Shown here: piece after piece, positions 7,728-19,269 of the stretch | Position numbering within the stretch: position 1 is the first letter of the stretch | Layout: each line of letters starts with the position of its first letter | NCBI RefSeq assembly: GCF_004745865.1 | Contig: NZ_SRKZ01000005.1 | Coordinates: forward strand, 124,001 to 188,000 | Length of the DNA: 64,000 bases | From: Hymenobacter wooponensis | GTDB lineage: Bacteria; Bacteroidota; Bacteroidia; Cytophagales; Hymenobacteraceae | Direction of reading: 5' to 3' | Notes under the pieces: model-generated | Told to the model about the DNA's origin: nothing | Database searches by the model: none | What the model saw: only the letters and a program-made list of their open reading frames with translations | Program-made: the position numbers and the translations under genes

Positions 7728-9110
7728 CTACGCCGGGAACAGCAGCGTGAATGTGGTGCCTTGGCCTAGGGTGCTATCAACGGAGAGCTGGATTCCTAGC
7801 AAAGCGCAGGCCTTGGCTACGATAGAGAGGCCTAGGCCAGTGCCGCCAATGTGCTTGTGGGCCAGGGCATCGGAGCGGTAGAGTGGGTCGAATATGCGCG
7901 GCAGGTCGTCGGCGCGAATCCCAATGCCGGCGTCGGTGATGGAGCAGCGTAGGCCACCTGCCACGTCGGCCAGCTCAATGACAATGGTGGAGCCCGCCGG
8001 TGAGTACTTTACAGCGTTGGACAGCACGTTATCCAGAATCAAATCCACCATAAACGGGTCGGAGGCCACGGCTTGAGTGGCGAGGTCCTGCACATCTACG
8101 CGTATGCGCTTGGTTCCCAGGTCGGTGCGAAGGCGGTAAAGCACGTCGTGCACGCTGCTGAGCACCGAGAGCTCCTGCCGGCGCAGGGTCATCTTGCCGG
8201 AGTCGTCGAAGCGGGCTAGCAGCAGGAGCTGGTCTACGAGGTTAGTGAGGCGGTCTATTTCCTGAATGCTGAGCTTGATGCTTTCCACGTACTCGGGGGC
8301 GGTGCGGGGCTTGCGTACCAGCACTTCCAGGGTGCCTTTTAGCACGGCCAGGGGCGTGCGCAGCTCGTGGGAGGCATCGGCGGTGAACTGCTTTTCGCGC
8401 TCCACGGCCTGCTCAATCCGCGCCAGCAGCCCATTGATGGCGGTGGCCAGTGTGTGCAGCTCATCGGGGCGAGCGGGCAGGGCAATGCGCTCAGCGAGGT
8501 TGCTGCGCGTGATGCGGTTGGTGGTGGCTGTAATCTGGGCCACGGGCGCAATGCTGCGCCCGGCCAGCAGGCGCGCACTGGCGTACAGGCCTAGCAGCAC
8601 CACCGGGAACGAGAGCAGCAGCACTATGCCCAGGCTGCTGAGCACGTGTTGCGCATCCTCGGAGGAAATGGCCGCCACCACGTACCCTACCGGCTGCCCA
8701 TCCCGCAGAATGGTTTCCTGGGCCTGCCGCACGGCCTTGCCCCGCAGCTCCAGATTCAGGAGCCGTTGCTGGGCCTGCTTGGGGTCAAACACCAGCTCAT
8801 CAGCCTTCAGGTTGGGGGAGCGGTCTAATAGGTGTCCGTGCAAGTCGTTTATCTGGAGGAAGATGGGGTCCACGTCTACCTCGCGGTGCTCCCGCTCCTC
8901 CCACTCATCCCGGTGGGCAAAGTGAATGGTATGGCCCACAATGCTCAACTCCTGGCTGTGCTTGGTGGCTTCAAAACGCAGGCGGGCATCCAGGCCGGCG
9001 TATACCTGCTGCCGTACTACCAGAAACACTAGCGCGTAGGCCACTGCCACCAGCGCGGCGGTGGCCAGCATGTACTGCAGCGCAATGCGGTTTTTGAACG
9101 TCAGGGCCAT
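7728..9110 (-). CDS. Sensor histidine kinase (CusS/PmrB-like)
   Basis: This 460-residue membrane kinase has a first membrane segment at about residues 12-32, a periplasmic domain to about 158, a second segment at about 160-178, HAMP, then HisKA with the phospho-accepting His248 (DASHELRTP) and a HATPase domain with the N-box DNVLSNAVKYS and the glycine boxes DAGIGI and GGTGLGLSI. The periplasmic part carries a His/acid-rich stretch at residues 60-79 (HTIHFAHRDEWEEREHREVD), which could bind metal ions (inference). It starts directly after the stop of the response regulator gene, so the pair is co-transcribed. The divergent RND pump suggests sensing of metal or envelope stress. Confidence 0.93.
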   Translation of the reverse strand: MALTFKNRIALQYMLATAALVAVAYALVFLVVRQQVYAGLDARLRFEATKHSQELSIVGHTIHFAHRDEWEEREHREVDVDPIFLQINDLHGHLLDRSPNLKADELVFDPKQAQQRLLNLELRGKAVRQAQETILRDGQPVGYVVAAISSEDAQHVLSSLGIVLLLSFPVVLLGLYASARLLAGRSIAPVAQITATTNRITRSNLAERIALPARPDELHTLATAINGLLARIEQAVEREKQFTADASHELRTPLAVLKGTLEVLVRKPRTAPEYVESIKLSIQEIDRLTNLVDQLLLLARFDDSGKMTLRRQELSVLSSVHDVLYRLRTDLGTKRIRVDVQDLATQAVASDPFMVDLILDNVLSNAVKYSPAGSTIVIELADVAGGLRCSITDAGIGIRADDLPRIFDPLYRSDALAHKHIGGTGLGLSIVAKACALLGIQLSVDSTLGQGTTFTLLFPA

Positions 9111-9776
9111 TTAGTCGCGGGCGACATACCCAATGCCGCGGATGGTTTGCAGGTAGTCTTCGTCTTTATGAAGGCGCAGCTTTTTGCGCAGGGCGTTCAT
9201 GTACACGTCAATCACACCGGTGTTGTACTCGAAATGAATGTCCCAGACGTTCTCAATGATGCTCTGACGGCGGCACACGTTGCCCTTGTGGCGCAGTAGG
9301 TACTCCAGCAGGGCAAATTCCTTCTGGGTCAGGGGTATTTCCTCGTCGTCCCGGAACACCTGGTGCGTGGCCACATCCAGCACAATGGGGCCCACGGTGA
9401 ACCGCTCGGGCGGGCCTGCCACCGGCCGCAGCTGCACCCGAATGCGCTCCAGCAGCTCCTCAAAGTGGAAGGGCTTTTTGATGTAGTCGTTGGCGCCAGC
9501 CTGTAGGCCCGCAATAGTATCCTGCACGGTGTCCTTGGCCGTGAGAAAGAGCAGCGGTGTGTGGTTTTGCGCGGCCCGCAGCTGCCGGCACACCTCCAGC
9601 CCCGAGAGGCCCGGCAACATCCAGTCCACCAGCAGCAAGTCGTAGGCCTGTTCCAGGGCCAGCGCCAACCCTTCGGTGCCGTTGTCGGCTACCTCCACGG
9701 CGTAGGCCTCTTCCTCCAGGCCCTGCTTCAGGAAACGGGCAATGCCGGGCTCATCTTCAATGACCAGGATGCGCAT
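9111..9776 (-). CDS. OmpR-family response regulator
   Basis: This 221-residue protein has a receiver domain (MRILVIEDEP, acceptor Asp51 in LLLVDWMLPG, Lys in IKKPF) followed by a winged-helix DNA-binding domain (LTQKEFALLEYLLRHKG, VIDVYMNALRKKL). It belongs to the CusR/QseB/PmrA branch. Its stop codon abuts the kinase start codon. It is divergent from the RND efflux operon across a 549-base gap that contains a perfect PmrA-type box at 10247-10263, so it probably activates that operon (inference). Confidence 0.94.
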   Translation of the reverse strand: MRILVIEDEPGIARFLKQGLEEEAYAVEVADNGTEGLALALEQAYDLLLVDWMLPGLSGLEVCRQLRAAQNHTPLLFLTAKDTVQDTIAGLQAGANDYIKKPFHFEELLERIRVQLRPVAGPPERFTVGPIVLDVATHQVFRDDEEIPLTQKEFALLEYLLRHKGNVCRRQSIIENVWDIHFEYNTGVIDVYMNALRKKLRLHKDEDYLQTIRGIGYVARD

Positions 9777-10166: not shown

Positions 10167-10246
10167 CAAACCAAGACAGTTTTCAGGCTGTGAACCTACT
10201 GCATATTGGGCGTTGATGGTAGCGGCCAGCCGGCTGCCATCACGAT

Positions 10247-10263
10247 TTTAAGGCAATCTTAAG
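10247..10263 (+). promoter_or_regulatory. PmrA/QseB-type operator upstream of the RND pump gene
   Basis: TTTAAG, five bases, CTTAAG matches the direct-repeat box (C/T)TTAA(G/T)-N5-(C/T)TTAA(G/T) known for PmrA/QseB-type OmpR-family regulators. It lies 62 bases before the chosen start of the pump gene, and the cognate-looking regulator is encoded divergently. The match is read directly; binding is inferred. Confidence 0.6.
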
Positions 10264-10325
10264 CCTGCTATGGCCGCTGGCTCAGGTTGGGGTTGCGTTC
10301 TTTGCATACGCAAAACCGACTTTCG

Positions 10326-13300
10326 ATGCTTTCAAAAATCATAGCGGCCAGCATTCATAACAAGCTGTTCGTGGTGCTGCTGCTGGTGGCGTTGGTAGGC
10401 TGGGGTGGCTATTCGGCCGCGCATCTGCCCCTCGATGCCATTCCCGACGTGACCAATAACCAAGTGCAGGTTATTACTCAGAGTCCGGCCTTGGCGGCGC
10501 AGGAAGTGGAGCAGCTGCTCACCGTGCCCCTGGAGCTGCAGCTGCGCACCATTCCGGGTGTAACGGAAATTCGCTCTATCTCGCGGTTTGGCCTCTCGGT
10601 GATTACAGTGGTGTTCGAGGATGACATTGACACCTACCGCACCCGCCAACTGGTAGCCGAAAAGCTCACCACCGCGCAGGCCGAGCTGGGTACCGGTGCC
10701 GCCCCCCAAATGGCCCCCATCACTACTGGACTAGGCGAGATTTATCAGTACAGCATCCACGTCAAGAAGGGCTACGAAGACAAATACTCCCTCAGCGCCC
10801 TGCGCGACGTGCAGGACTGGCTCATTAAACGTCCCCTGGCCGGCGTGCCCGGCGTGGTAGACGTGAGCAGCTTCGGGGGCTACGTACGCCAGTACGAGGT
10901 CAGCGTAAACCCCGACCAGCTCAACGCGGCCGGGGTAACCATGCCGGAACTGTTCAAAGCCCTGCAAGACAACAACGACAACACCGGCGGCTCTTACCTG
11001 GAGCGCGGCCGCAATGGCTACTTCATTCGGGGCGAAGGCCGGGTAAGCTCCCTTGATGACGTTGGCACCATCGTAATCAAGCAGGCCACCCAGAACGCGC
11101 CCCTGCTGGTGCGCGATGTAGCACAGGTGCGCTTCGGGCACTCCATGCGCTACGGGGCCATGACCCGCAACGGCGGCGGCGAAACGGTGGGCGGTATTGT
11201 GCTCATGCTCAAGGGCGCCTCTTCGGAGCAAACCATTAAGGGCGTGAAGGCGCGGGTGGCGGAAATTGAGAAAACCCTGCCGCCTGGCCTAGAAGTGGTG
11301 CCGTTCCTCGACCGTACCAAGCTCATCGACAAGGCCATTCATACCGTCACCAAAAACCTGATTGAGGGCGGCGTCATCGTGATTCTGGTGCTGCTGATTC
11401 TGCTGGGCAACTTCCGAGCGGGGCTGGTGGTGGCTTCCATGATTCCGCTGTGCATGCTGTTTGCCCTGGGCATGATGCGCACCTTCGACGTATCGGCTAA
11501 CCTGATGAGCCTAGGCGCCCTGGACTTCGGGTTGATTGTAGACGGGGCCGTGATTATCGTGGAAGCCATGATCTTCCATATCGTGCACTTCCGTAATGAA
11601 ACGGAGCACGAAACCATGGACCAGGTGGCCGAAACTGCCGCTACCCGCATGATGCGCTCGGCCTTGTTTGGGCAGCTCATCATCCTAATTGTGTACTTCC
11701 CTATTCTGGCCCTCACCGGCATCGAGGGGAAGATGTTCCGGCCCATGGCCCTCACCGTGAGCTTCGCCATTGTGGGCGCCATGCTGCTGTGCCTCACCTA
11801 CGTACCGGCCGTGTCGGCGTGGGCATTGCGCAAGGATATCAAGGAAGAGGGCACCCTGGCCCACCGCATTATGCAGTTCTTGCTGCGCGGCTACGAGCCT
11901 CTGATTCAGGGGGCGCTGCGCATGCGTGGGGCCGTAGTGGCGCTGGCCCTAGGCCTGTTGGTGCTGTCGGGAGTACTGTTCTGGCGCATGGGCGGCGAGT
12001 TTATTCCGCAGCTTGATGAGGGCGACTTTGCCGTGAACGTGACCCTTTCGCCCGGCTCCTCACTGAGCCAGAGCATTGCCACCACCACCAAAGTCCAGCA
12101 GATTTTGCTGCAGAAATTCCCGGAGGTAGAGCAGGTGGTGGGCAAAATTGGCACCTCCGAAATTCCCACCGACCCCATGTCGTTCGAGGACTCCGACCAG
12201 ATTGTGGTGCTGAAAGACCAGGGCGAGTGGACCTCGGCCGGCTCGCGGGAGGAGCTGGCGGGTAAGATGAACGAAGCCCTGGCCAATATTCCCGGCGTAA
12301 ACGTGGAGTTTCAGCAGCCCATTCAGATGCGGTTCAACGAGCTGATTTCGGGCGCTAAGTCAGACATCAGCATTAAGATTTACGGCGAAGACCTGGCGGT
12401 GCTCTTTGAGAAAGCCAACCACGCCGCCGCCCTTATTCGCCCCCTCGACGGGGTGGGCGACCTGAAGGTGGAGCAGATTGCGGCCCTGCCCCAGCTGCGC
12501 GTCACCTACGACCGCCAGAAGCTGGCCCAATACGGCCTGAACGTGTCGGACCTGAACACGCTGCTGCGCTCCTCCTTCGCGGGCGATGTGGCCGGCCAGG
12601 TGTACGAAGGTGAGCGGCGCTACGACCTGGTCCTGCGCCTCGACAGCACCAGCCGCCAGGGCCTCGGCGACCTGCGCAACCTTTATGTGGATACGCCCCT
12701 AGGCCAGAAAGTGCCGCTGGAGGAAGTGGCCACGGTGGCCTACCGCAGCGCCCCCGCCCAAATCTCCCGCGACGACGCCCGCCGCCGCATCAACATTGGG
12801 GTGAACGTGCGCGGCCGTGACGTGCAAAGCCTGGTACAGGAAATTCAGGGCAAGCTCGATGCCGGACTGAAGCTGCCCACCGGCTACAGCATCAAGTACG
12901 GCGGGGCCTTCGAGAACCTGCAGCAGGCCAAGGCCCGTTTAAGCGTGGTGGTGCCTATCTCCCTGCTGCTCATACTCTTGCTACTGTATCTATCCTTCAA
13001 CTCCGTAAAGCAGGCCGCCCTAATTTTCACGGGTATTCCGCTGGCTACTATCGGCGGTATTCTGGCGCTGTGGCTGCGGGATATGCCCTTTAGTATTTCG
13101 GCGGGCGTGGGCTTCATTGCCCTATTTGGAGTGGCCGTGCTCAACGGTATTGTACTGGTAGCCAGCCTCAATGAGCTGGCCCTGGCCGGCGTGCGCAACG
13201 TACGGGAACGGGTACTGCGGGCCACGGCTGAGCGCTTCCGGCCGGTACTGCTCACGGCCTCGGTGGCGTCTCTGGGTTTCCTGCCCATGGCCTTGAGCAA

Positions 13301-14702
13301 CTCGGCTGGCGCGGAGGTGCAAAAGCCCCTGGCCACGGTAGTTATCGGCGGGCTAATTACGGCCACGCTGCTTACCCTGCTGGTGCTGCCGGTGCTCTAT
13401 ACCTTCTTCACCTCCAGTGATGAAGATCCAACGCCTGCTACACCCGCTGAACCAAATGGAACCCCCACTAGGCCAGTAGTGGCGCTGGGGTTAACACTTC
13501 TATTGCTGACTTTACCTGACCTAGGCCAGGCGCAAACAGCTCCCGCTTCACCGGCTACCCCTGGCACTCCGCTCACGCTGCAGCAGGCCTTGCAGACTGG
13601 CCTACGGCAAAACCTATCGTTGCAGTCGTCGGCTTTGCAGGCTCAGCAGCAACGCGCCCTTACCCGCACCGGCTACGATATTCCGCGCACCGTATTGGAT
13701 TACCAGCGGGGGCAGATTTCGGGCCCGCTCATCGACCAGAGCTTCAACGTGATTCAGCAAACAGCTCTGCCTAATGTGTACGCCGCGCAGCGCCGCCTGC
13801 TGGAAAGCCAAGCTCTGACGGCCGAGCAGCGTGGCCGCGTGCAGCGCCGGGAGCTTAGCCAGAACATCCGCATCAGCTACTACCAACTGCTACTCACCTA
13901 CCGCCGCGCGGCCCTATTGCGCCGCCAGGATAGCCTGTACCGCCGCGCCGCCCGGGCCGCAAAAATTCGGTACCAGGTAGGCGAAACCAACCGGCTGGAG
14001 CAGGTTTCGGCTGAGGCCCGCTCGCGGGAACTGCAAAACCAACTGGCCAATACACTTACCGAGGTGGCCGTGCAGCAGCAGCAATTGGCTCTATTGCTGG
14101 GCACCGCGCCCACCCGCATTGATACCACCGAAAACGCCGTGGCCGTGCTAGCTGCCGCCGATACCATCAGCCTCTCCCCCGACTCTAACCCTACTCTAGG
14201 CCTCTTGCGCCAGGAGCTAACCCAGAGCCAACGCCAGACCCAGGTGGAACAGCTGCGCCGCCTCCCCGATGTGCGCGTGGGCTATTTCAACCAGACTATC
14301 AATAAGGAGAAAGGCTTTCAGGTGGCGCAAGCGGGGCTTTCGGTGCCGCTGCTGGGCGGAGCACAGAAGGCTCGCATTGCCGCCGCCCGCCTCGGTGAGC
14401 AAGCCGCCGACAACCAACTGGCCTACGCCACCACCCAGCTCACCGGTCAGCAAGCCGCCCTGCGCCAACAGTTGCGCCGGGCCCGCGCTTCCCTCAACTA
14501 CTACGAGCGCGACGCCCTGCCCCAGGCCCGCCTCATCCTGACTACGGCCGAAAAAAGCTTCCGCGCCGGCGACATCGACTACGTAACCTACGTGGTGAAT
14601 ACCGAGCCGGCTTGGCAAATCCAACAGGCCTACCTCGATCAGGTGCGCCAATACAATGAGGTAGTTATTGCTCTGCAAGCCTTGGCGGGCACCGATGAGT
14701 AA
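10326..14702 (+). CDS. CzcA/CusA-family heavy-metal RND pump fused to a TolC-like outer membrane factor
   Basis: This 1458-residue protein starts at MLSKIIAASIHNKL; an in-frame ATG 39 bases upstream adds residues not typical of the family. Residues 1 to about 1035 are an HME-RND transporter with twelve predicted membrane segments. The signature DFGLIVDGAV (D400, D406) is closer to divalent-cation pumps (CzcA, CnrA) than to the Cu/Ag pump CusA. From about residue 1082 the chain is an OMF/TolC-type protein (LTLQQALQTGLRQNLSLQ and coiled-coil regions). The junction at about 1049-1070 reads like a signal peptide (VVALGLTLLLLTLPDLGQAQ), see findings. Family knowledge: export of Co/Zn/Cd/Ni from the periplasm out of the cell. 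It forms an operon with the adaptor gene. Confidence 0.94.
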   Translation: MLSKIIAASIHNKLFVVLLLVALVGWGGYSAAHLPLDAIPDVTNNQVQVITQSPALAAQEVEQLLTVPLELQLRTIPGVTEIRSISRFGLSVITVVFEDDIDTYRTRQLVAEKLTTAQAELGTGAAPQMAPITTGLGEIYQYSIHVKKGYEDKYSLSALRDVQDWLIKRPLAGVPGVVDVSSFGGYVRQYEVSVNPDQLNAAGVTMPELFKALQDNNDNTGGSYLERGRNGYFIRGEGRVSSLDDVGTIVIKQATQNAPLLVRDVAQVRFGHSMRYGAMTRNGGGETVGGIVLMLKGASSEQTIKGVKARVAEIEKTLPPGLEVVPFLDRTKLIDKAIHTVTKNLIEGGVIVILVLLILLGNFRAGLVVASMIPLCMLFALGMMRTFDVSANLMSLGALDFGLIVDGAVIIVEAMIFHIVHFRNETEHETMDQVAETAATRMMRSALFGQLIILIVYFPILALTGIEGKMFRPMALTVSFAIVGAMLLCLTYVPAVSAWALRKDIKEEGTLAHRIMQFLLRGYEPLIQGALRMRGAVVALALGLLVLSGVLFWRMGGEFIPQLDEGDFAVNVTLSPGSSLSQSIATTTKVQQILLQKFPEVEQVVGKIGTSEIPTDPMSFEDSDQIVVLKDQGEWTSAGSREELAGKMNEALANIPGVNVEFQQPIQMRFNELISGAKSDISIKIYGEDLAVLFEKANHAAALIRPLDGVGDLKVEQIAALPQLRVTYDRQKLAQYGLNVSDLNTLLRSSFAGDVAGQVYEGERRYDLVLRLDSTSRQGLGDLRNLYVDTPLGQKVPLEEVATVAYRSAPAQISRDDARRRINIGVNVRGRDVQSLVQEIQGKLDAGLKLPTGYSIKYGGAFENLQQAKARLSVVVPISLLLILLLLYLSFNSVKQAALIFTGIPLATIGGILALWLRDMPFSISAGVGFIALFGVAVLNGIVLVASLNELALAGVRNVRERVLRATAERFRPVLLTASVASLGFLPMALSNSAGAEVQKPLATVVIGGLITATLLTLLVLPVLYTFFTSSDEDPTPATPAEPNGTPTRPVVALGLTLLLLTLPDLGQAQTAPASPATPGTPLTLQQALQTGLRQNLSLQSSALQAQQQRALTRTGYDIPRTVLDYQRGQISGPLIDQSFNVIQQTALPNVYAAQRRLLESQALTAEQRGRVQRRELSQNIRISYYQLLLTYRRAALLRRQDSLYRRAARAAKIRYQVGETNRLEQVSAEARSRELQNQLANTLTEVAVQQQQLALLLGTAPTRIDTTENAVAVLAAADTISLSPDSNPTLGLLRQELTQSQRQTQVEQLRRLPDVRVGYFNQTINKEKGFQVAQAGLSVPLLGGAQKARIAAARLGEQAADNQLAYATTQLTGQQAALRQQLRRARASLNYYERDALPQARLILTTAEKSFRAGDIDYVTYVVNTEPAWQIQQAYLDQVRQYNEVVIALQALAGTDE

Positions 14703-14765: not shown

Positions 14766-15983
14766 ATGAAGTTTTCCCTTTTGCCTGCTTTTTCACTTCC
14801 GCTGACCTCCCTCCTGCTGGCTGCCGGCCTTGCCGGTTGTAAACAGGGCGCTTCCCCGGAGGCCAAAGGCGCCACGCCTCCCCGCCCCGAAACGCCTGCG
14901 GCTCCCGCCAACCCCGACCAAGTCACGATTTCGGCGGCGCAGGCGCGGGCGGCGGGTATTGCGCTGGGCAGCTTTACGCGCCAGAATATGGCCTCGGAGG
15001 TGCAGGCGAATGGCGTGGTGGATGTACCGCCGCAAAACCTGGTGACGATTTCGGCGGTGCTGGGCGGCTACGTGCAGCAGGTGCAGGTGCTGCCGGGCCA
15101 GTTCGTGAAGAAGGGCGCCACCGTGGCCGTGCTGCGCCACCCCGATTATATCAAGCTGCAGGAAGCCTACCTGCAAAGCCGGGCCCGGGTGCGCTTCCTA
15201 AGTCAGGAACTGGAGCGCCAGCGCATTCTTGATGTGGAAGATGTGGGGGCCAAGCGCAAGCTCCAGCAAGCCCAAGCCGACTACGCCACCGAGCAAGCCA
15301 CACAACGCAGCTTGGCGGCCCAGCTAGGCCAGTTGAATATCTCGGCGGAGCGCCTGGCCGCCTCGGGACGCATTCAGCCCACCGTCAGCCTTACCACTCC
15401 GCTCTCGGGCTACGTGCGCACGGTGAGTACCAACCCCGGCCAATTTGTGAACCCCCAGGATGTGCTGGTGGAAATAGTAGACCGCTCCGATCTGCACCTG
15501 CAGCTCAAAGTGTTTGAGCGCGATGTGGCGCGGGTGCGCGTAGGCCAGTCAATTTTGTTCACGGTGCCTAGCCGCAAGATGGCCCAGGAAATTCTACGGG
15601 CCCGAGTTTTCTTGGTGGGCAAAGCCTTTGAAAACGACGCTCGCACCGTAACGGTGCACGCCCACCTCGAAGGCCGCGAAACCGAAACCCTCCTGCCCGG
15701 CCAGTACGTGGCTGCCCGCATCCAGACTGCGGGGCAGCAGGCTCGCACGTTGCCCGAAGACGCCATTATTCAGGCTGGGGAACTGAGTTACGCCTATGTG
15801 CAAACCCATGCTACCGATAGCACTGCCACCTTTCGGCGCATAAAAGTAAAAGCCGGCGCCTTTGCCCACGGTGATGTAGCCGTAACCCCTCTAGACCCCA
15901 TCCCCGACACGACTCAGCTGGTACGCCGAGGCGCTTATTTTCTGGACGCTGAGCGGGGTAAAGGACAGGGCAACGACGATTAA
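14766..15983 (+). CDS. Efflux RND transporter periplasmic adaptor lipoprotein (CzcB/CusB-like)
   Basis: This 405-residue protein starts at MKFSLLPAFSL; in-frame residues upstream of it do not fit a signal. It has a lipobox LAGC with Cys25, so it is a membrane-anchored lipoprotein. The order of parts is typical for the membrane fusion family: a lipoyl half-motif (VTISAVLGGYVQQVQVLPGQ), a coiled-coil hairpin (about residues 130-200), the second lipoyl half (TPLSGYVRTVSTNPGQFV), then beta-barrel and proximal domains. It bridges the inner-membrane pump and the outer-membrane channel, both supplied by the fused gene 63 bases upstream. No separate outer membrane factor is encoded here, consistent with the fusion. 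Confidence 0.93.
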   Translation: MKFSLLPAFSLPLTSLLLAAGLAGCKQGASPEAKGATPPRPETPAAPANPDQVTISAAQARAAGIALGSFTRQNMASEVQANGVVDVPPQNLVTISAVLGGYVQQVQVLPGQFVKKGATVAVLRHPDYIKLQEAYLQSRARVRFLSQELERQRILDVEDVGAKRKLQQAQADYATEQATQRSLAAQLGQLNISAERLAASGRIQPTVSLTTPLSGYVRTVSTNPGQFVNPQDVLVEIVDRSDLHLQLKVFERDVARVRVGQSILFTVPSRKMAQEILRARVFLVGKAFENDARTVTVHAHLEGRETETLLPGQYVAARIQTAGQQARTLPEDAIIQAGELSYAYVQTHATDSTATFRRIKVKAGAFAHGDVAVTPLDPIPDTTQLVRRGAYFLDAERGKGQGNDD

Positions 15984-16120
15984 CTCTCTAGGATATCGGC
16001 AAAGGCTACCCTGAAGGGACAAAAGCTGCTGCCCAAAGCCATCAAAAAGTAATCGCTGCCGTATGGTGGAATGGTTTGTGTTTTAATCTGGTTTTAATCA
16101 CAACCCCTTCCCCTCTTTCT

Positions 16121-16576
16121 ATGCGTTTTCTGCTCGTTTGCCTGTTTTTACTACTGGCAGCCTTCACTAGTCAGGCCCAAACGCCTGCGACAACCTGGAA
16201 TGCTAACCTGACCGAGGCCTTGCAACAGGCTAAAGCCATTAACAAACCGGTGCTAGCCGTTTTTTCGGGCTCCGATTGGTGTAAGCCGTGTATCATGCTC
16301 AAGCAGGAGGTGTTTGACCAGCCGGAGTTCCAGCAGTACGCCCAAGATCGGCTGGTACTAGCTCGGTTTGACTTTCCGCGCAGCAAGAAAAACAAACTCT
16401 CCGCTGAGCAAACCAAGTTGAATGAGGCTGCGGCGGCGCAGCTTAATAAAGAGGGCTCATTTCCGCTCGTGGTGCTTATCTCGCCGGAGGGCAAGGTGCT
16501 GGCCAAGACCGGTTACCGCCCCGGTGGACCCGCCGCCTACGATGCCTACCTATCTCAGCTTTTAACCAAACGCTAG
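16121..16576 (+). CDS. Exported thioredoxin-fold protein (Thioredoxin_7 type)
   Basis: This 151-residue protein has a signal peptide (MRFLLVCLFLLLAAFTSQAQ) and a thioredoxin fold with the active site SDWCKPC (Cys54, Cys57), followed by ESTABLISHED-family features such as a cis-proline loop in GSFPLVVL. It probably reduces or forms disulfides in the periplasm. It lies 137 bases after the RND adaptor and only 4 bases before the ApbE gene, so it heads a tight gene set with ApbE, DUF4266 and DUF3570. A role in keeping cysteines of the small DUF4266 lipoprotein reduced is conceivable (inference). Confidence 0.88.
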   Translation: MRFLLVCLFLLLAAFTSQAQTPATTWNANLTEALQQAKAINKPVLAVFSGSDWCKPCIMLKQEVFDQPEFQQYAQDRLVLARFDFPRSKKNKLSAEQTKLNEAAAAQLNKEGSFPLVVLISPEGKVLAKTGYRPGGPAAYDAYLSQLLTKR

Positions 16577-16580
16577 AGGT

Positions 16581-17666
16581 ATGCACGCCAGTCGTCTGCC
16601 TGCAAAGCGGTTTTTCAGCGTAATAGCCCGGTTTTTAGTGCTGAGCTGGCTGCTAGTAGCCAACTCAGCAGCTTTTGCTCAGGCCCCGGCCAGCAAGCCC
16701 CGCAACTTCACCCGCACCGCCCACCTGATGGGCTCCCACTTTAGCTTCACGGCCGTCTCGGCGGACGATTCCTTGGCCTGGCGCGCCATTCGGGCGGGTA
16801 TCCGGGAAACGCAGCGCATCGACCGGCTTTTTTCCTATTGGGATTCCACCTCCCAAATTACGCAGATCAACCGCCAGGCCGGCATCAAGCCCGTGGTGGT
16901 AGACCAGGAGGTGTATGATTTGATTCAGCGGACGCTCAAGCTTTCCGCGCTCAGTGATGGGGCGTTTGACATCACGTTTGCCGGCGGCGAGAAGATTTAC
17001 AAGTTCGACCGTAAGGAGCACGCCAGCCTCCCCGCCCCAGAGGTAGTGAAGGCCTCCGTGGCTCGTATTGATTACCGCAATGTGCTGCTTGATCCTGCCA
17101 CTCACTCCGTAATGCTGCAAGACAAGGGCATGCGCCTGAATCTGGCGGGCATTCTGCAGGGCTATGGCGTGCGCAAGGCTCAGGCCCTTATGCGGCAGAT
17201 GGGCATTCAGGGTGGCCTCATCAACGGTTCCGGTGACGTGTCGTGCTGGGGGCGGCAGGGTGATGGTTCTTTGTGGCGCATTGCCATCGGCGACCCGGCT
17301 TATCCGCAGTCCGTTTCCTCGTGGCTGACCGTGACGGACGTGGCCGTGGTGACGGCCGGCAACTACGAGCAGTACTTCACGGTGCAGGGTAAGTACTACG
17401 GGCACATCATTGACCCACACACCGGCTACCCCGCCACTGGCCTACGCTCCGTTACCATCATCTGCCCCGATGTGGAGCTAGCCGATGGCCTAGATGAAGT
17501 GGTGTTTGTAAAAGGGCCAGAAGAAGGGCTGGCTTTCATCAACAAGCTTAAGGGCGTTGACTGCGCCCTCATTACCAATGATGGCCGCACCCTCACTTCC
17601 CGGGGCATGGCGGTTAACTATTACTCCACGCAGCAACCGCAGACCGCTGCGGCCCCGAAACCATGA
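16581..17666 (+). CDS. apbE: FAD:protein FMN transferase (ApbE family)
   Basis: This 361-residue protein begins with a signal sequence (hydrophobic residues about 15-34, ending AAFAQ). ApbE motifs are visible: DGAFDITFAG, GVRKAQALMRQMG, NGSGDVSCWG, and the metal/FAD-binding HIIDPHTGYPA. Family knowledge: ApbE uses FAD and Mg2+ to attach FMN to a Ser or Thr in a D-x-x-[ST]-G-A-[ST] context of exported redox proteins. I found no such target sequence in the neighbouring proteins. The start lies 4 bases after the thioredoxin stop and the end overlaps the next start by 4 bases, indicating translational coupling. Confidence 0.93.
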   Translation: MHASRLPAKRFFSVIARFLVLSWLLVANSAAFAQAPASKPRNFTRTAHLMGSHFSFTAVSADDSLAWRAIRAGIRETQRIDRLFSYWDSTSQITQINRQAGIKPVVVDQEVYDLIQRTLKLSALSDGAFDITFAGGEKIYKFDRKEHASLPAPEVVKASVARIDYRNVLLDPATHSVMLQDKGMRLNLAGILQGYGVRKAQALMRQMGIQGGLINGSGDVSCWGRQGDGSLWRIAIGDPAYPQSVSSWLTVTDVAVVTAGNYEQYFTVQGKYYGHIIDPHTGYPATGLRSVTIICPDVELADGLDEVVFVKGPEEGLAFINKLKGVDCALITNDGRTLTSRGMAVNYYSTQQPQTAAAPKP

Positions 17667-17908
17667 TTCTCCCAACCGTTTTTGCCTCGCGTGTGCGGGT
17701 GGTGCTAGGTGGGCTGCTACTTCTAAGTGGTAGCGGCCTTAGCAGCTGCGTATCGGTGGCAGCTTACCAAAAGATGTACCTCAACGATGAGGATATGAAA
17801 CTGGCCAACAAGCGCATTGAGGTCTACGAAACCAACTTTGAGAGCTACCGCGAAGGTGCCGGCGGGGCTAATGGCGGCAAAGTAGGTGGCGGCTGCGGCT
17901 GTAATTAG
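17663..17908 (+). CDS. DUF4266-family mini-lipoprotein with GGGCGCN tail
   Basis: This 81-residue protein overlaps the ApbE stop by 4 bases (ATGA type). It has a lipoprotein signal ending LSSC (Cys29), a short charged region (YLNDEDMKLANKRIEVYETN) and a glycine-rich end finishing GGGCGCN with two closely spaced cysteines. The family is recognised as DUF4266; its function is unknown. The Cys-Gly-Cys tail could bind metal or be a modification site (inference). Its place between ApbE and DUF3570 argues for a joint role at the cell surface or periplasm. Confidence 0.85.
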   Translation: MILPTVFASRVRVVLGGLLLLSGSGLSSCVSVAAYQKMYLNDEDMKLANKRIEVYETNFESYREGAGGANGGKVGGGCGCN

Positions 17909-17985
17909 CCGCCTCCAACCCATCTGGTTCCGCTAGGCCACCTCACTGATTTTTCCGCTTGCCGTACCACCCCACTCCCCTCCCG

Positions 17986-19269
17986 ATGCTTTATAGTTTC
18001 TACTCTTTTCGTCGGTCCGTTGTGGCTGCGGCCTTCCTGGCCCTGCTGCCCGCGCTGGCTTGGGCTCAGGCTACTCCCGTGCCCAACCGCGTAGATGGCT
18101 ACGGCGCCCCCAACACCACCGCACCGAGTTCGCCAAACCCCAGCAACCACGGCGAAACAGAGGTAAATATTATGTCCAGCTATTACCAGCAAGATGGCGA
18201 CCATGGAGCGGTGCAGGGCGGCCGCGGCACCCAATACCTCACCGACCTCACGCCCACTATCATCCTGAACGTGCCCCTCGATTCGGCCACACGGGTGTCG
18301 GCCAACGTGGGCGTCGACTATTACGCCTCAGCTTCTACCGACCGCATTGACCAGGTGCTGTCGTCGCCTTCCTCGCATGATGCCCGCTACCACGTAGACC
18401 TAGGGTATTCGCGGCAGCTGGCCGACAAACGCACTATTGTGGGCGTAGGCGGGGGCTTTTCAAAGGAGTACGATTACCTATCCTTCAACATCACGGGCTC
18501 CTGGGCGCATGCTTCGCTGGATGGTAATCGGGAGCTGAGTGTAGCGGGGCAGGCCTTTTTCGACCGGGCCACCCTGATTTTGCCGGCTGAGTTGCGCGCT
18601 GGCGGTGGTCAGGAACATGGCTCGGGCTTCGATACCCGCCAGAGCTTCAACCTGAATGTAGTGTACTCGCAGGTGCTCACTCAGCGGCTGCAATTGGCCC
18701 TCAGCACGGAGCTAGTGGCCCAGCGGGGGCTACTGAGTACGCCTTTTCACCGGGTGTATTTTAAGGAGACGGGTGAAGCTCTGGGCACGGCCAAAACTGA
18801 GCGCCTGCCCAGGCAGCGCTATAAATATCCCGTGGGCCTGCGCCTGAATTACTACGCCACCGACCTGGTGCAGCTGCGCGGCTACTACCGCTTCTACAAC
18901 GATAACTTTGGCATTACGGCGCACACCATGGAGCTGGAAACGCCCGTGAAGGTGACGCCCTTCTTTGTGCTGTACCCCTTCTACCGCTACCACACGCAAA
19001 CGGCAGCCAAGTACTTCGCGCCCTATTTGCAGCACTCGGTTTTCGATGAGTTTTATACCTCTGACTATGATTTGGCCGGCTTCGCAGCGCATAAGTTGGG
19101 CTTGGGCCTGCGCTACTCCCCGGTGTATGGCATTGGGCGGTTTAAAACACCCTTTGGTGGGCGCATAGCTAAATTCAAAGCCCTCGACCTGCGATACGCC
19201 TACTACCGCCAAACCACTGGCCTGACCGCCAACCTGATCAGCGCCGACTTGTCGTTTACTATGCCCTAG
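17986..19269 (+). CDS. DUF3570-family exported beta-rich protein
   Basis: This 427-residue protein has a signal peptide (residues 1-25, ending ALAWAQ); the in-frame ATG at 17959 is 9 codons earlier and breaks the signal pattern. The mature chain alternates short aromatic-rich beta strands and turns (LDLGYSRQL-type, LRGYYRFYNDNFGI, RYAYYRQTTGL), as expected of an outer-membrane beta-barrel, and it ends in a strand with Phe near the end (DLSFTMP). DUF3570 has no assigned function. It is the last gene of the thioredoxin-ApbE-DUF4266-DUF3570 set, 77 bases after DUF4266, and is convergent with an AraC-type gene. Confidence 0.85.
   Translation: MLYSFYSFRRSVVAAAFLALLPALAWAQATPVPNRVDGYGAPNTTAPSSPNPSNHGETEVNIMSSYYQQDGDHGAVQGGRGTQYLTDLTPTIILNVPLDSATRVSANVGVDYYASASTDRIDQVLSSPSSHDARYHVDLGYSRQLADKRTIVGVGGGFSKEYDYLSFNITGSWAHASLDGNRELSVAGQAFFDRATLILPAELRAGGGQEHGSGFDTRQSFNLNVVYSQVLTQRLQLALSTELVAQRGLLSTPFHRVYFKETGEALGTAKTERLPRQRYKYPVGLRLNYYATDLVQLRGYYRFYNDNFGITAHTMELETPVKVTPFFVLYPFYRYHTQTAAKYFAPYLQHSVFDEFYTSDYDLAGFAAHKLGLGLRYSPVYGIGRFKTPFGGRIAKFKALDLRYAYYRQTTGLTANLISADLSFTMP

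Follow-up and report, generated by a model that had tools for sequence, protein, structure and literature searches.

In Hymenobacter wooponensis, four tightly packed genes, located between positions 16121 and 19269 of a 64,000-nucleotide stretch of its DNA (contig NZ_SRKZ01000005.1, part of a 6.01-Mb genome; hereafter, the window), encode a variant of the ApbE-DUF3570-DUF4266-thioredoxin system described by Meheust et al. in 2021 (PMC8238504). Except for the motif at which the flavin would be attached, we regard this assignment as nearly certain. Taken as a whole, the explanation that we consider best, and to which we give about an even chance, is that the cassette forms a metal-responsive route for flavin-borne electrons in the cell envelope. 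What may be new here is the predicted barrel shape of DUF3570, its altered flavin attachment sites and a possible control signal common to the cassette and a neighboring metal pump.

A variant of a published flavinylation system

All four genes lie on the forward strand, and their products score above the curated Pfam cut-offs. The first encodes an exported thioredoxin-like protein with a WCKPC active site (16121-16576; Thioredoxin_7, PF13899, E-value 1.1e-13, 51.5 bits, cut-off 27) and the second an exported ApbE, a flavin adenine dinucleotide:protein flavin mononucleotide (FMN) transferase, in which our residue survey found changed metal-site residues (16581-17666; PF02424, 4e-74; motifs ADGLDE and GILQG). 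They are followed by a DUF4266 mini-lipoprotein (17663-17908; PF14086, 5.7e-18, 66 bits, cut-off 27) and by DUF3570, a predicted 16-strand outer-membrane barrel and likely ApbE client (17986-19269; PF12094, 8.9e-28, 97.7 bits, cut-off 25). Four bases separate the thioredoxin gene from the ApbE gene, the latter overlaps the DUF4266 gene by 4 bases (ATGA), and 77 bases precede the DUF3570 start codon (ATG at 17986). Gene calls and Pfam thus confirmed the set as delineated, in coordinates, strand, gap and overlap, by a first-pass annotation of the sequence. N-terminal signal peptides of the cassette proteins and a DUF4266 lipobox (LSSC) were both recognized by eye; the tail of the DUF4266 mini-lipoprotein reads GGGCGCN (Cys-Gly-Cys).

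The first-pass annotation had also proposed an undescribed redox system. This is ruled out, as the same four families were combined in the thioredoxin-like/flavinylation system published in 2021. The passages of PMC8238504 concerned with this system report 285 clusters with DsbD, including DUF3570 in 227, DUF4266 in 221 and PF13899 in 183, and 316 more clusters without DsbD; VIT1 is noted in 25 clusters. The extracytoplasmic redox role suggested by the first-pass annotation agrees with this system, while its remark that no function is known for two of the four families no longer holds for DUF3570, shown in the same work to be an ApbE substrate. Specifically, the Chlorobium luteolum protein (ABB24424.1), which has two [S/T]GA[S/T] sites, was flavinylated in experiment; according to the passage describing it, the protein was found mostly in the insoluble pellet and purified denatured, still flavinylated. 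The CXC tail of DUF4266 is read there as a possible redox pair. The word "barrel" is absent from the main text of that paper, and its passages on the system contain nothing on metal efflux. In the literature searched, PMC8238504 alone refers to DUF4266 or DUF3570 by name. The pertinent part of PMC11334425 mentions flavinylation sites at the outer membrane once and does not name DUF3570, and nothing relevant to flavinylated porins was among the matches listed.

The window cassette shares with the published clusters all defining components, namely ApbE, DUF3570, DUF4266 with a C-terminal CXC and a PF13899 thioredoxin, as well as the export of these proteins; clusters that, like this one, are devoid of DsbD have also been reported. 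It differs in the non-canonical acceptor sites, the changed metal-site residues of ApbE, a DsbD that is unlinked and a sequence box common to the cassette and a metal pump. With no DsbD in the cluster, the cassette falls outside the DsbD-linked subtype, and it does not belong to the FMN_bind type of flavinylation systems either: FMN_bind (PF04205) was found neither in the window's genome nor in any of 120 Hymenobacter genomes. The window's genome holds one ApbE, one DUF3570, one DUF4266 and one unlinked DsbD.

Co-occurrence and conserved gene order

DUF3570 and DUF4266 are present in the identical 91 of the 120 Hymenobacter genomes. ApbE is found in 99 of the 120, and 90 of these are among the 91 cassette genomes. 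Among 60 long Hymenobacter loci, 59 share the gene order thioredoxin-ApbE-DUF4266-DUF3570, if those with additional copies or a split ApbE frame are counted as well; a phylum-wide sample shows the same order in 31 of 40. All these loci were retrieved for the presence of DUF3570 or DUF4266, and the 60 long ones of Hymenobacter specifically for DUF3570. The Hymenobacter, phylum and named locus sets used throughout partly overlap (e.g., L171/L142 and L193/L136), and some genomes contribute more than one locus. The shared genome distribution and the conserved order indicate that the grouping is more than chance, and they bear out the first-pass annotation in that the four families are neighbors in other genomes.

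A different arrangement characterizes family f17, which we take for Chlorobiaceae on the basis of its placing in the phylum and its motif. Here, the order is thioredoxin-DUF4266-DUF3570-ApbE in 12 of 13 long loci (in seven ApbE adjoins DUF3570, and one has extra copies); in locus L258, ApbE was not found. A long thioredoxin-bearing frame often follows ApbE in this family, and in L250, the one locus checked, it is DsbD. In one f17 locus (L262, 5406-15453), a stretch of about 10 kb contains four copies of DUF3570, two each of DUF4266 and thioredoxin, and a single ApbE.

Several other loci depart from the common composition. DUF4266 occurs with neither DUF3570 nor ApbE in the fetched stretch of a Flammeovirgaceae metagenome-assembled genome (L219, 5948-6208) and of Flexithrix dorotheae (L227, 9887-10162); a glutathione-peroxidase family gene adjoins DUF4266 in the former and a look-alike in the latter. 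In L100 (5763-8033) and L101 (7982-10315), a large lipoprotein is encoded beside DUF4266-DUF3570. It matches the Pfam middle domain of hydrazine synthase alpha (scored on the L101 copy) and shows weak cytochrome c matches below the cut-off; neither ApbE nor thioredoxin was matched in these stretches. Directly upstream of the thioredoxin gene, many loci encode one of two unrelated small proteins of about 130 and 154 residues (L202, 7972-8361; L112, 5717-6178). Neither has a Pfam match at 0.001, and the shorter one also has no NCBIfam match. A gene for a small Rieske-type iron-sulfur protein is often found in the same position (L063, 5487-6008; L073, 9795-10247).

Candidate flavin acceptor sites

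With a single ApbE and no FMN_bind protein in the genome, DUF3570 appears to be the likeliest client of the window's ApbE. Its alignment with relatives, from which rows of fewer than 250 aligned residues were left out, revealed two candidate FMN acceptors. At site 1, Ser117 (Ser90 of the mature protein; codon 18334-18336, forward strand) lies in the context ASAS, and Ala89-Ser90 is invariant in 73 aligned sequences. At site 2, Ser129 (18370-18372, forward strand) lies in the context SSPS. Both serines are kept in all 64 Hymenobacter sequences, with ASAS in 56, SSAS in seven and TSAS in one at site 1, and SSPS in 31, STPS in 31 and SSAS in two at site 2. (An initial tally comprised 34 Hymenobacter rows, the best-scoring ones plus four, with one gene present twice and hence 33 distinct; the 64 rows are the fuller tally.) The canonical [S/T]GA[S/T] occurs anywhere in the stop-to-stop DUF3570 frame in just three of the 64. 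In 32 rows from other Bacteroidota, site 1 is [S/T]SAS throughout, and site 2 is [S/T]SAS in 20, [S/T]GAS in 11 and GGAK in one. In f17, [S/T]GAS is found in 27 of 28 rows at site 1 and in 24 of 28 at site 2; these are the two positions with which the acceptor sites of C. luteolum DUF3570, a member of the same family and the same kind of cassette, are aligned. In other words, across this portion of the phylum Gly has generally been replaced by Ser at site 1, while the change from Ala to Pro at site 2 is typical of Hymenobacter.

How much flavinylation would such sites support? According to the relevant passage of a review (PMC12052999), single motif changes lower flavinylation, but do not abolish it, with about 50% left after a change of Gly to Ala or Ala to Val. 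Nothing else was found in the window's genome that needs ApbE (DUF2271 was not searched), and both serines are retained. We therefore consider flavinylation of DUF3570 in this organism likely, though with appreciable room for doubt. DUF4266 was rejected as a substrate by motif: the window protein has no [S/T]GA[S/T], and its alignment has no conserved acceptor.

DUF3570 as a predicted outer-membrane barrel

Neither DUF4266 nor DUF3570 was matched by NCBIfam, and the DUF3570 profile found a single chance-level match (E-value 0.2) among PDB sequences. AlphaFold modeled the mature window protein (400 residues, with 72 relatives) as a barrel, with a predicted local distance difference test score (pLDDT) of 85.7 and a predicted template modeling score (pTM) of 0.83. 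A second model, led by a Marinifilum sequence, reached pLDDT 89.1 and pTM 0.84 and has the same 16 long strands. The alignments were freed of sequences above 88% identity (72 of 80 kept; 68 rows for the second model), and the strands were counted by us from DSSP assignments, short extra strands being left out. The 50 matches listed by Foldseek and the 50 listed by VIA-align, which took a second look at the Foldseek matches, bear titles of outer-membrane barrels or barrel-assembly entries, along with a plastid TOC-TIC entry; families outside the listing remain possible. VIA-align Z-scores span 15-21, with 230-301 of the 400 residues aligned. The best listed, both with Z 20.8, are PgaA (root-mean-square deviation (rmsd) 3.2 over 256 residues) and a model of BamA (rmsd 3.6 over 281 residues). 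The predicted even number of strands, the C-terminal strand and the signal peptide seen by eye are as expected for an outer-membrane barrel. As a prediction, the barrel suggested by the first-pass annotation is thus well supported by two models and by the folds matched in PDB.

The modeled barrel has its two chain ends on the same side. Loops that follow odd-numbered strands (14, 13, 2, 16, 34, 4, 27 and 4 residues) are for the most part longer than the turns that follow even-numbered ones (4, 5, 5, 4, 4, 8 and 16 residues). Long loops of outer-membrane barrels usually face out, and in both models the two candidate FMN sites lie in one loop, between strands 3 and 4, on the side that presumably faces outward. 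Strong conservation is unusual in exposed loops. Of the 61 alignment columns with at least 90% identity, the long-loop side, which comprises 216 positions, has 50 and the opposite side, with 153 positions, has 11; of the 28 invariant columns, 25 are on the long-loop side and three on the other. Such conservation suggests a functional site there.

ApbE, thioredoxin and DUF4266

The Hymenobacter enzymes are unusual in their metal-site residues. In 60 of 61 Hymenobacter ApbEs, Glu or Asp replaces a Thr that is present in 35/35 ApbEs of other Bacteroidota and in 12/12 of f17. This position corresponds to T284 of E. coli ApbE, a site-1 metal ligand (Table 3 of PMC4767422). Gln occupies the E169/K165 position, again in 60 of 61, and position 283 is Asp, as in E. 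coli, in the same proportion; E. coli numbering was assigned by motif spacing rather than residue-by-residue alignment, and fragments shorter than 220 residues were left out of the counts. In the sole exception among the 61, the motif is that seen in ApbE-DUF2271 fusions. Considering the retention of Asp283, the metal site of the Hymenobacter cassette enzyme may well persist. Moreover, f17 ApbEs also deviate at the metal site (AGSxxT), which means that activity should not be judged from these residues. We rejected the idea that ApbE is simply dead: the His of the HIIDP motif is kept in 192/192 aligned sequences and the two metal-site Asp residues in 60 of 61.

In the ApbE tree (its sample including 18 Hymenobacter cassette and six f17 sequences, with several long branches flagged), the enzymes of Hymenobacter make up a single clade nested within those of the cassettes, and its stem is long, at 1.4 changes per column. 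Their grouping with cassette enzymes of other Bacteroidota (support 98/96) rules out a takeover of the cassette by another ApbE lineage. Mean ApbE identity between Hymenobacter and the other two groups is 0.389 and 0.397, clearly lower than the 0.496 between those groups. Accelerated change of DUF3570 along with ApbE was likewise rejected: the corresponding values, 0.376 and 0.397 vs 0.386, are not lower beyond 0.01. Seven Hymenobacter ApbEs from outside cassettes were examined. Six of them (L243-L247, L249) are of another type (ADAYDN, GIAQG), found in a genus in which no FMN_bind was detected; of the two loci annotated, L248 encodes an ApbE-DUF2271 fusion beside a PepSY protein, and L243 an ApbE that adjoins a GFO/IDH oxidoreductase.

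WCxPC is present in 149 of 158 thioredoxins encoded directly before DUF4266; the window thioredoxin scores 89 bits against the NCBIfam model of DsbH, below the cut-off of 190. The GGCGC tail of DUF4266 is invariant in all 23 aligned members.

Metal-gene neighborhood and a direct-repeat box

Upstream of the cassette are, in order, a divergent sensor kinase and response regulator, a pump and its adaptor. The pump (10326-14702, forward strand) belongs to the CusA/CzcA family of resistance-nodulation-division (RND) transporters, scoring 1158.2 bits against TIGR00914 (cut-off 701.45; query 10287-13577), so that the RND operon placed before the cassette by the first-pass annotation holds. The pump and a TolC-like outer-membrane efflux component share this one reading frame (1471 residues, ATG at 10326); a fusion of ACR_tran and OEP was also seen for the relative in L072. 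The periplasmic adaptor, or membrane fusion protein, follows at 14766-15983 on the same strand (HlyD_D23, 4.6e-30; TIGR01730, 101.7 bits, cut-off 94.9). On the reverse strand are a CzcS/CopS-like sensor histidine kinase (7728-9110), divergent from the pump, and a CzcR/CopR-like response regulator of the OmpR/PhoB family (9111-9776; Response_reg and Trans_reg_C). Their best NCBIfam matches, TIGR01386 (230.8 bits, cut-off 292.55) and TIGR01387 (225.6 bits, cut-off 279.2), stay below the cut-offs for a CzcS/CzcR-type heavy-metal two-component system.

Metal-related genes recur near cassettes elsewhere. Neighbors were counted within eight genes of DUF4266 by sequence clusters, for which 30 representatives were annotated, so pumps and carriers outside these clusters were missed. 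Pumps of the window-type cluster are found near 10 of 64 Hymenobacter cassettes, 11 of 37 from other Bacteroidota and 13 of 80 named loci (3/3 cluster members checked pass TIGR00914), and VIT1 near 9/64, 8/37 and 13/80, respectively. Any of pump, VIT1, P-type ATPase or ferritin occurs near 17/64, 16/37 and 21/80. The window's genome has five pump genes above the cut-off, corresponding to about a 2% chance of finding one per 16-20 kb; at chance rates of 2% and 4%, the pump-neighbor counts have P values of 1e-10 to 2e-4, related loci being treated as independent. DUF4266 lies within 10 kb of an above-cut-off pump in four of the 10 genomes outside f17 that are present in both tables. The arrangements are diverse: pump, adaptor, haem-binding protein, a small unknown protein, cassette, PAP2 and VIT1 in Chryseobacterium limigenitum (L188) and Epilithonimonas lactis (L165); cassette, regulator, kinase and pump in L072; regulator, kinase, cytochrome b561, VIT1, Rieske protein and cassette in L073. 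Recurrence of metal genes in different orders points to a metal link. A second island in one and the same genome (G000:C20:54829-80513, in L270 and L271) contains three RND genes, one of them above the CusA/CzcA cut-off, with VIT1 between.

The pump and the cassette also have a putative control signal in common. A direct-repeat box, TTTTAAG-N4-TCTTAAG, is predicted upstream of the pump (10246-10263, forward strand), and a similar one, TTTTAAT-N4-TTTTAAT, 22 nt before the thioredoxin ATG (16081-16098, forward strand). They are the only two window matches to TYTTAAK-N4-TYTTAAK with at most one mismatch, the limit used for all box counts unless stated otherwise, against a shuffle mean of 0.10; this is not an independent test, since the pattern was chosen after seeing the two sites. 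In the 6.0-Mb genome there are four exact boxes, including the two of the window, and none with a reversed control. Box counts in other Hymenobacter genomes do provide an independent test, though the species are related: the box precedes thioredoxin in 21 of 63 Hymenobacter cassettes and only five of 887 other genes, four of these five being Rieske (2) or ferritin (2) genes in the same neighborhoods. It is also found before the pump in three of 10 Hymenobacter loci and before ApbE in two of 67, where it is the same box as that of thioredoxin. Among other Bacteroidota, five loci of one genus (Flavobacterium, judging by L069/L183) have a form of the box, with two or more mismatches, in common with one another and at a similar distance.

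The layout of both window boxes is that of the PmrA (BasR) box, in which, according to the relevant passage of PMC3973317, two hexamers of the [C/T]TTAA[G/T] type face the same direction 5 bp apart. The likeness concerns half-site type, direction and spacing; the PmrA box comes from a different phylum, and the window regulator is nearer to CzcR/CopR than to PmrA by NCBIfam. Such a layout is typical of OmpR/PhoB-family regulators, and one is encoded beside the pump. We propose the response regulator at 9111-9776 as a candidate regulator of both pump and cassette.

Proposed mechanism and its alternatives

According to the model that we favor, a metal-responsive flavin electron route in the envelope, the single ApbE would attach FMN to one or two serines in the long DUF3570 loop, probably before the barrel folds. 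DUF3570 would then insert into the outer membrane, forming a 16-strand barrel whose flavin loop lies on the side of the long loops, which presumably faces outward. Electrons may come from a donor in the membrane, perhaps DsbD, of which the genome encodes a single unlinked copy, and be handed to the exported thioredoxin, from there to the Cys-Gly-Cys tail of the DUF4266 lipoprotein, on to the DUF3570 flavin and finally to an acceptor located at the outer membrane or beyond it. As to direction, the simpler guess is that they flow outward from thioredoxin. In this genome, the cassette appears to be part of a metal-responsive regulon together with the adjacent CusA/CzcA-type pump; were that the case, it would most likely serve to deal, by redox chemistry in the envelope, with a metal or with thiol damage that metals cause. 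We lean towards a metal role in this genome, whereas for the family at large such a role is uncertain. A bolder version of the model casts DUF3570 as a haem-free outer-membrane conduit or surface reductase, whose loop FMN is fed through thioredoxin and the lipoprotein and which is co-induced with the efflux pump for surface metal reduction or thiol repair, with both ApbE and its client changed in Hymenobacter towards a relaxed acceptor motif. In such detail, the model is speculative and rather doubtful. The Mtr and Pio conduits resemble the cassette only in this proposed role, redox cofactors at an outer-membrane barrel; the cassette has no multihaem cytochrome and would use FMN in place of haem.

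A number of observations weigh against this model. No DsbD is encoded beside the cassette, the sole DsbD_TM match of the genome being about 332 kb away (C16:475668). None of the four window proteins contains [S/T]GA[S/T], two copies of which characterize the known system, and the ApbE metal-site residues are unusual. The FMN loop is poorly predicted in the window model (pLDDT below 50 for residues 90-101), and the facing of the barrel sides is deduced from strand parity. As for metals, 54 of 64 Hymenobacter loci have no window-cluster pump within eight genes and 47 have no pump, VIT1, P-type ATPase or ferritin; in f17, no DUF4266-pump pair within 10 kb was found in the 11 genomes present in both tables. 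As for the box, it is missing before thioredoxin in 42 of 63 Hymenobacter cassettes, and its presence is not significantly associated with metal neighbors (9/21 vs 8/43, p 0.068). The remaining two exact boxes in the genome are close to molybdopterin-oxidoreductase-like and SulP-like genes (assigned by eye), for which a metal role is not evident. Among 28 loci of other Bacteroidota, no box has fewer than two mismatches and 15 reach three, which makes the box outside Hymenobacter indistinguishable from chance. The metal link drawn by the first-pass annotation from the position of the pump thus gains from pump and VIT1 neighbors in several genera and from the box before both pump and cassette, but is not universal.

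Of the alternatives, the one that survives best, although we think it unlikely, is that the cassette serves envelope redox chemistry in general, be it respiratory, anti-oxidant or disulfide-related, and that its metal neighbors merely reflect clustering of envelope and stress genes. Many Hymenobacter cassettes indeed adjoin other genes (M23 peptidase, PHP, EVE, S8), the f17 loci often have a thioredoxin-bearing frame after ApbE, no pump was found within 10 kb in the 11 f17 genomes of both tables, and Rieske, cytochrome b561 and Haem_bd neighbors suit respiration as well as metals. However, pumps neighbor the cassette far above the chance rate (with related loci counted as independent in the P values), VIT1, P-type ATPase and ferritin are found repeatedly and in varying arrangements, and the box is common to pump and cassette in this genome.

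Iron assimilation, suggested in a passage of PMC8238504, is less probable still. Here, Fe(III) would be reduced by flavin electrons, either outside the cell or within the periplasm, and the resulting Fe(II) taken up or stored by VIT1 or other carriers. The recurrence of VIT1, both in the published clusters and in our loci, and ferritin-like genes in L136 (named copy L193, H. citatus) and L160 are in line with this idea. Yet the efflux pump is at least as common a neighbor as VIT1, storage or detoxification would explain VIT1 and ferritin equally well, and no TonB receptor or siderophore gene is among the 30 annotated neighbor representatives (other neighbors being unannotated).

We consider it similarly improbable that flavinylation was lost or altered in Hymenobacter, with ApbE acting mainly as an FAD pyrophosphatase or modifying another protein and DUF3570 working unflavinylated. 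The off-motif sites ASAS and S[ST]PS, the Glu or Asp and Gln substitutions in ApbE and its long stem branch would all be expected in that case. On the other hand, both acceptor serines are kept in every Hymenobacter sequence, motif changes are partly tolerated, all but one of the 91 cassette genomes retain ApbE, the enzyme still belongs to the cassette clade, and deviations are also seen in the ApbEs of f17, presumed to be the group that includes the one with demonstrated activity. Least probable is that DUF4266 is primarily a metal-binding mini-lipoprotein, its Cys-Gly-Cys (of Cu(I) or Zn type) kept reduced by thioredoxin and flavin transfer being secondary: the invariant tail and the metal-gene neighbors would fit, but a CxC tail is equally suited to a thiol relay, as it is read in the passage of PMC8238504 on this tail, no histidine or methionine cluster is visible by eye, and the constant partner is DUF3570 rather than a metal gene.

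If flavins do sit at the outer membrane, such a system would bring electrons to the bacterial surface without multihaem cytochromes. Searches for [S/T]GA[S/T] would miss ApbE clients with non-canonical serine sites such as those described here. The predicted barrel with a flavin loop, a possible metal-responsive operator and a genus in which DUF3570 is the sole evident ApbE client make the question experimentally direct.

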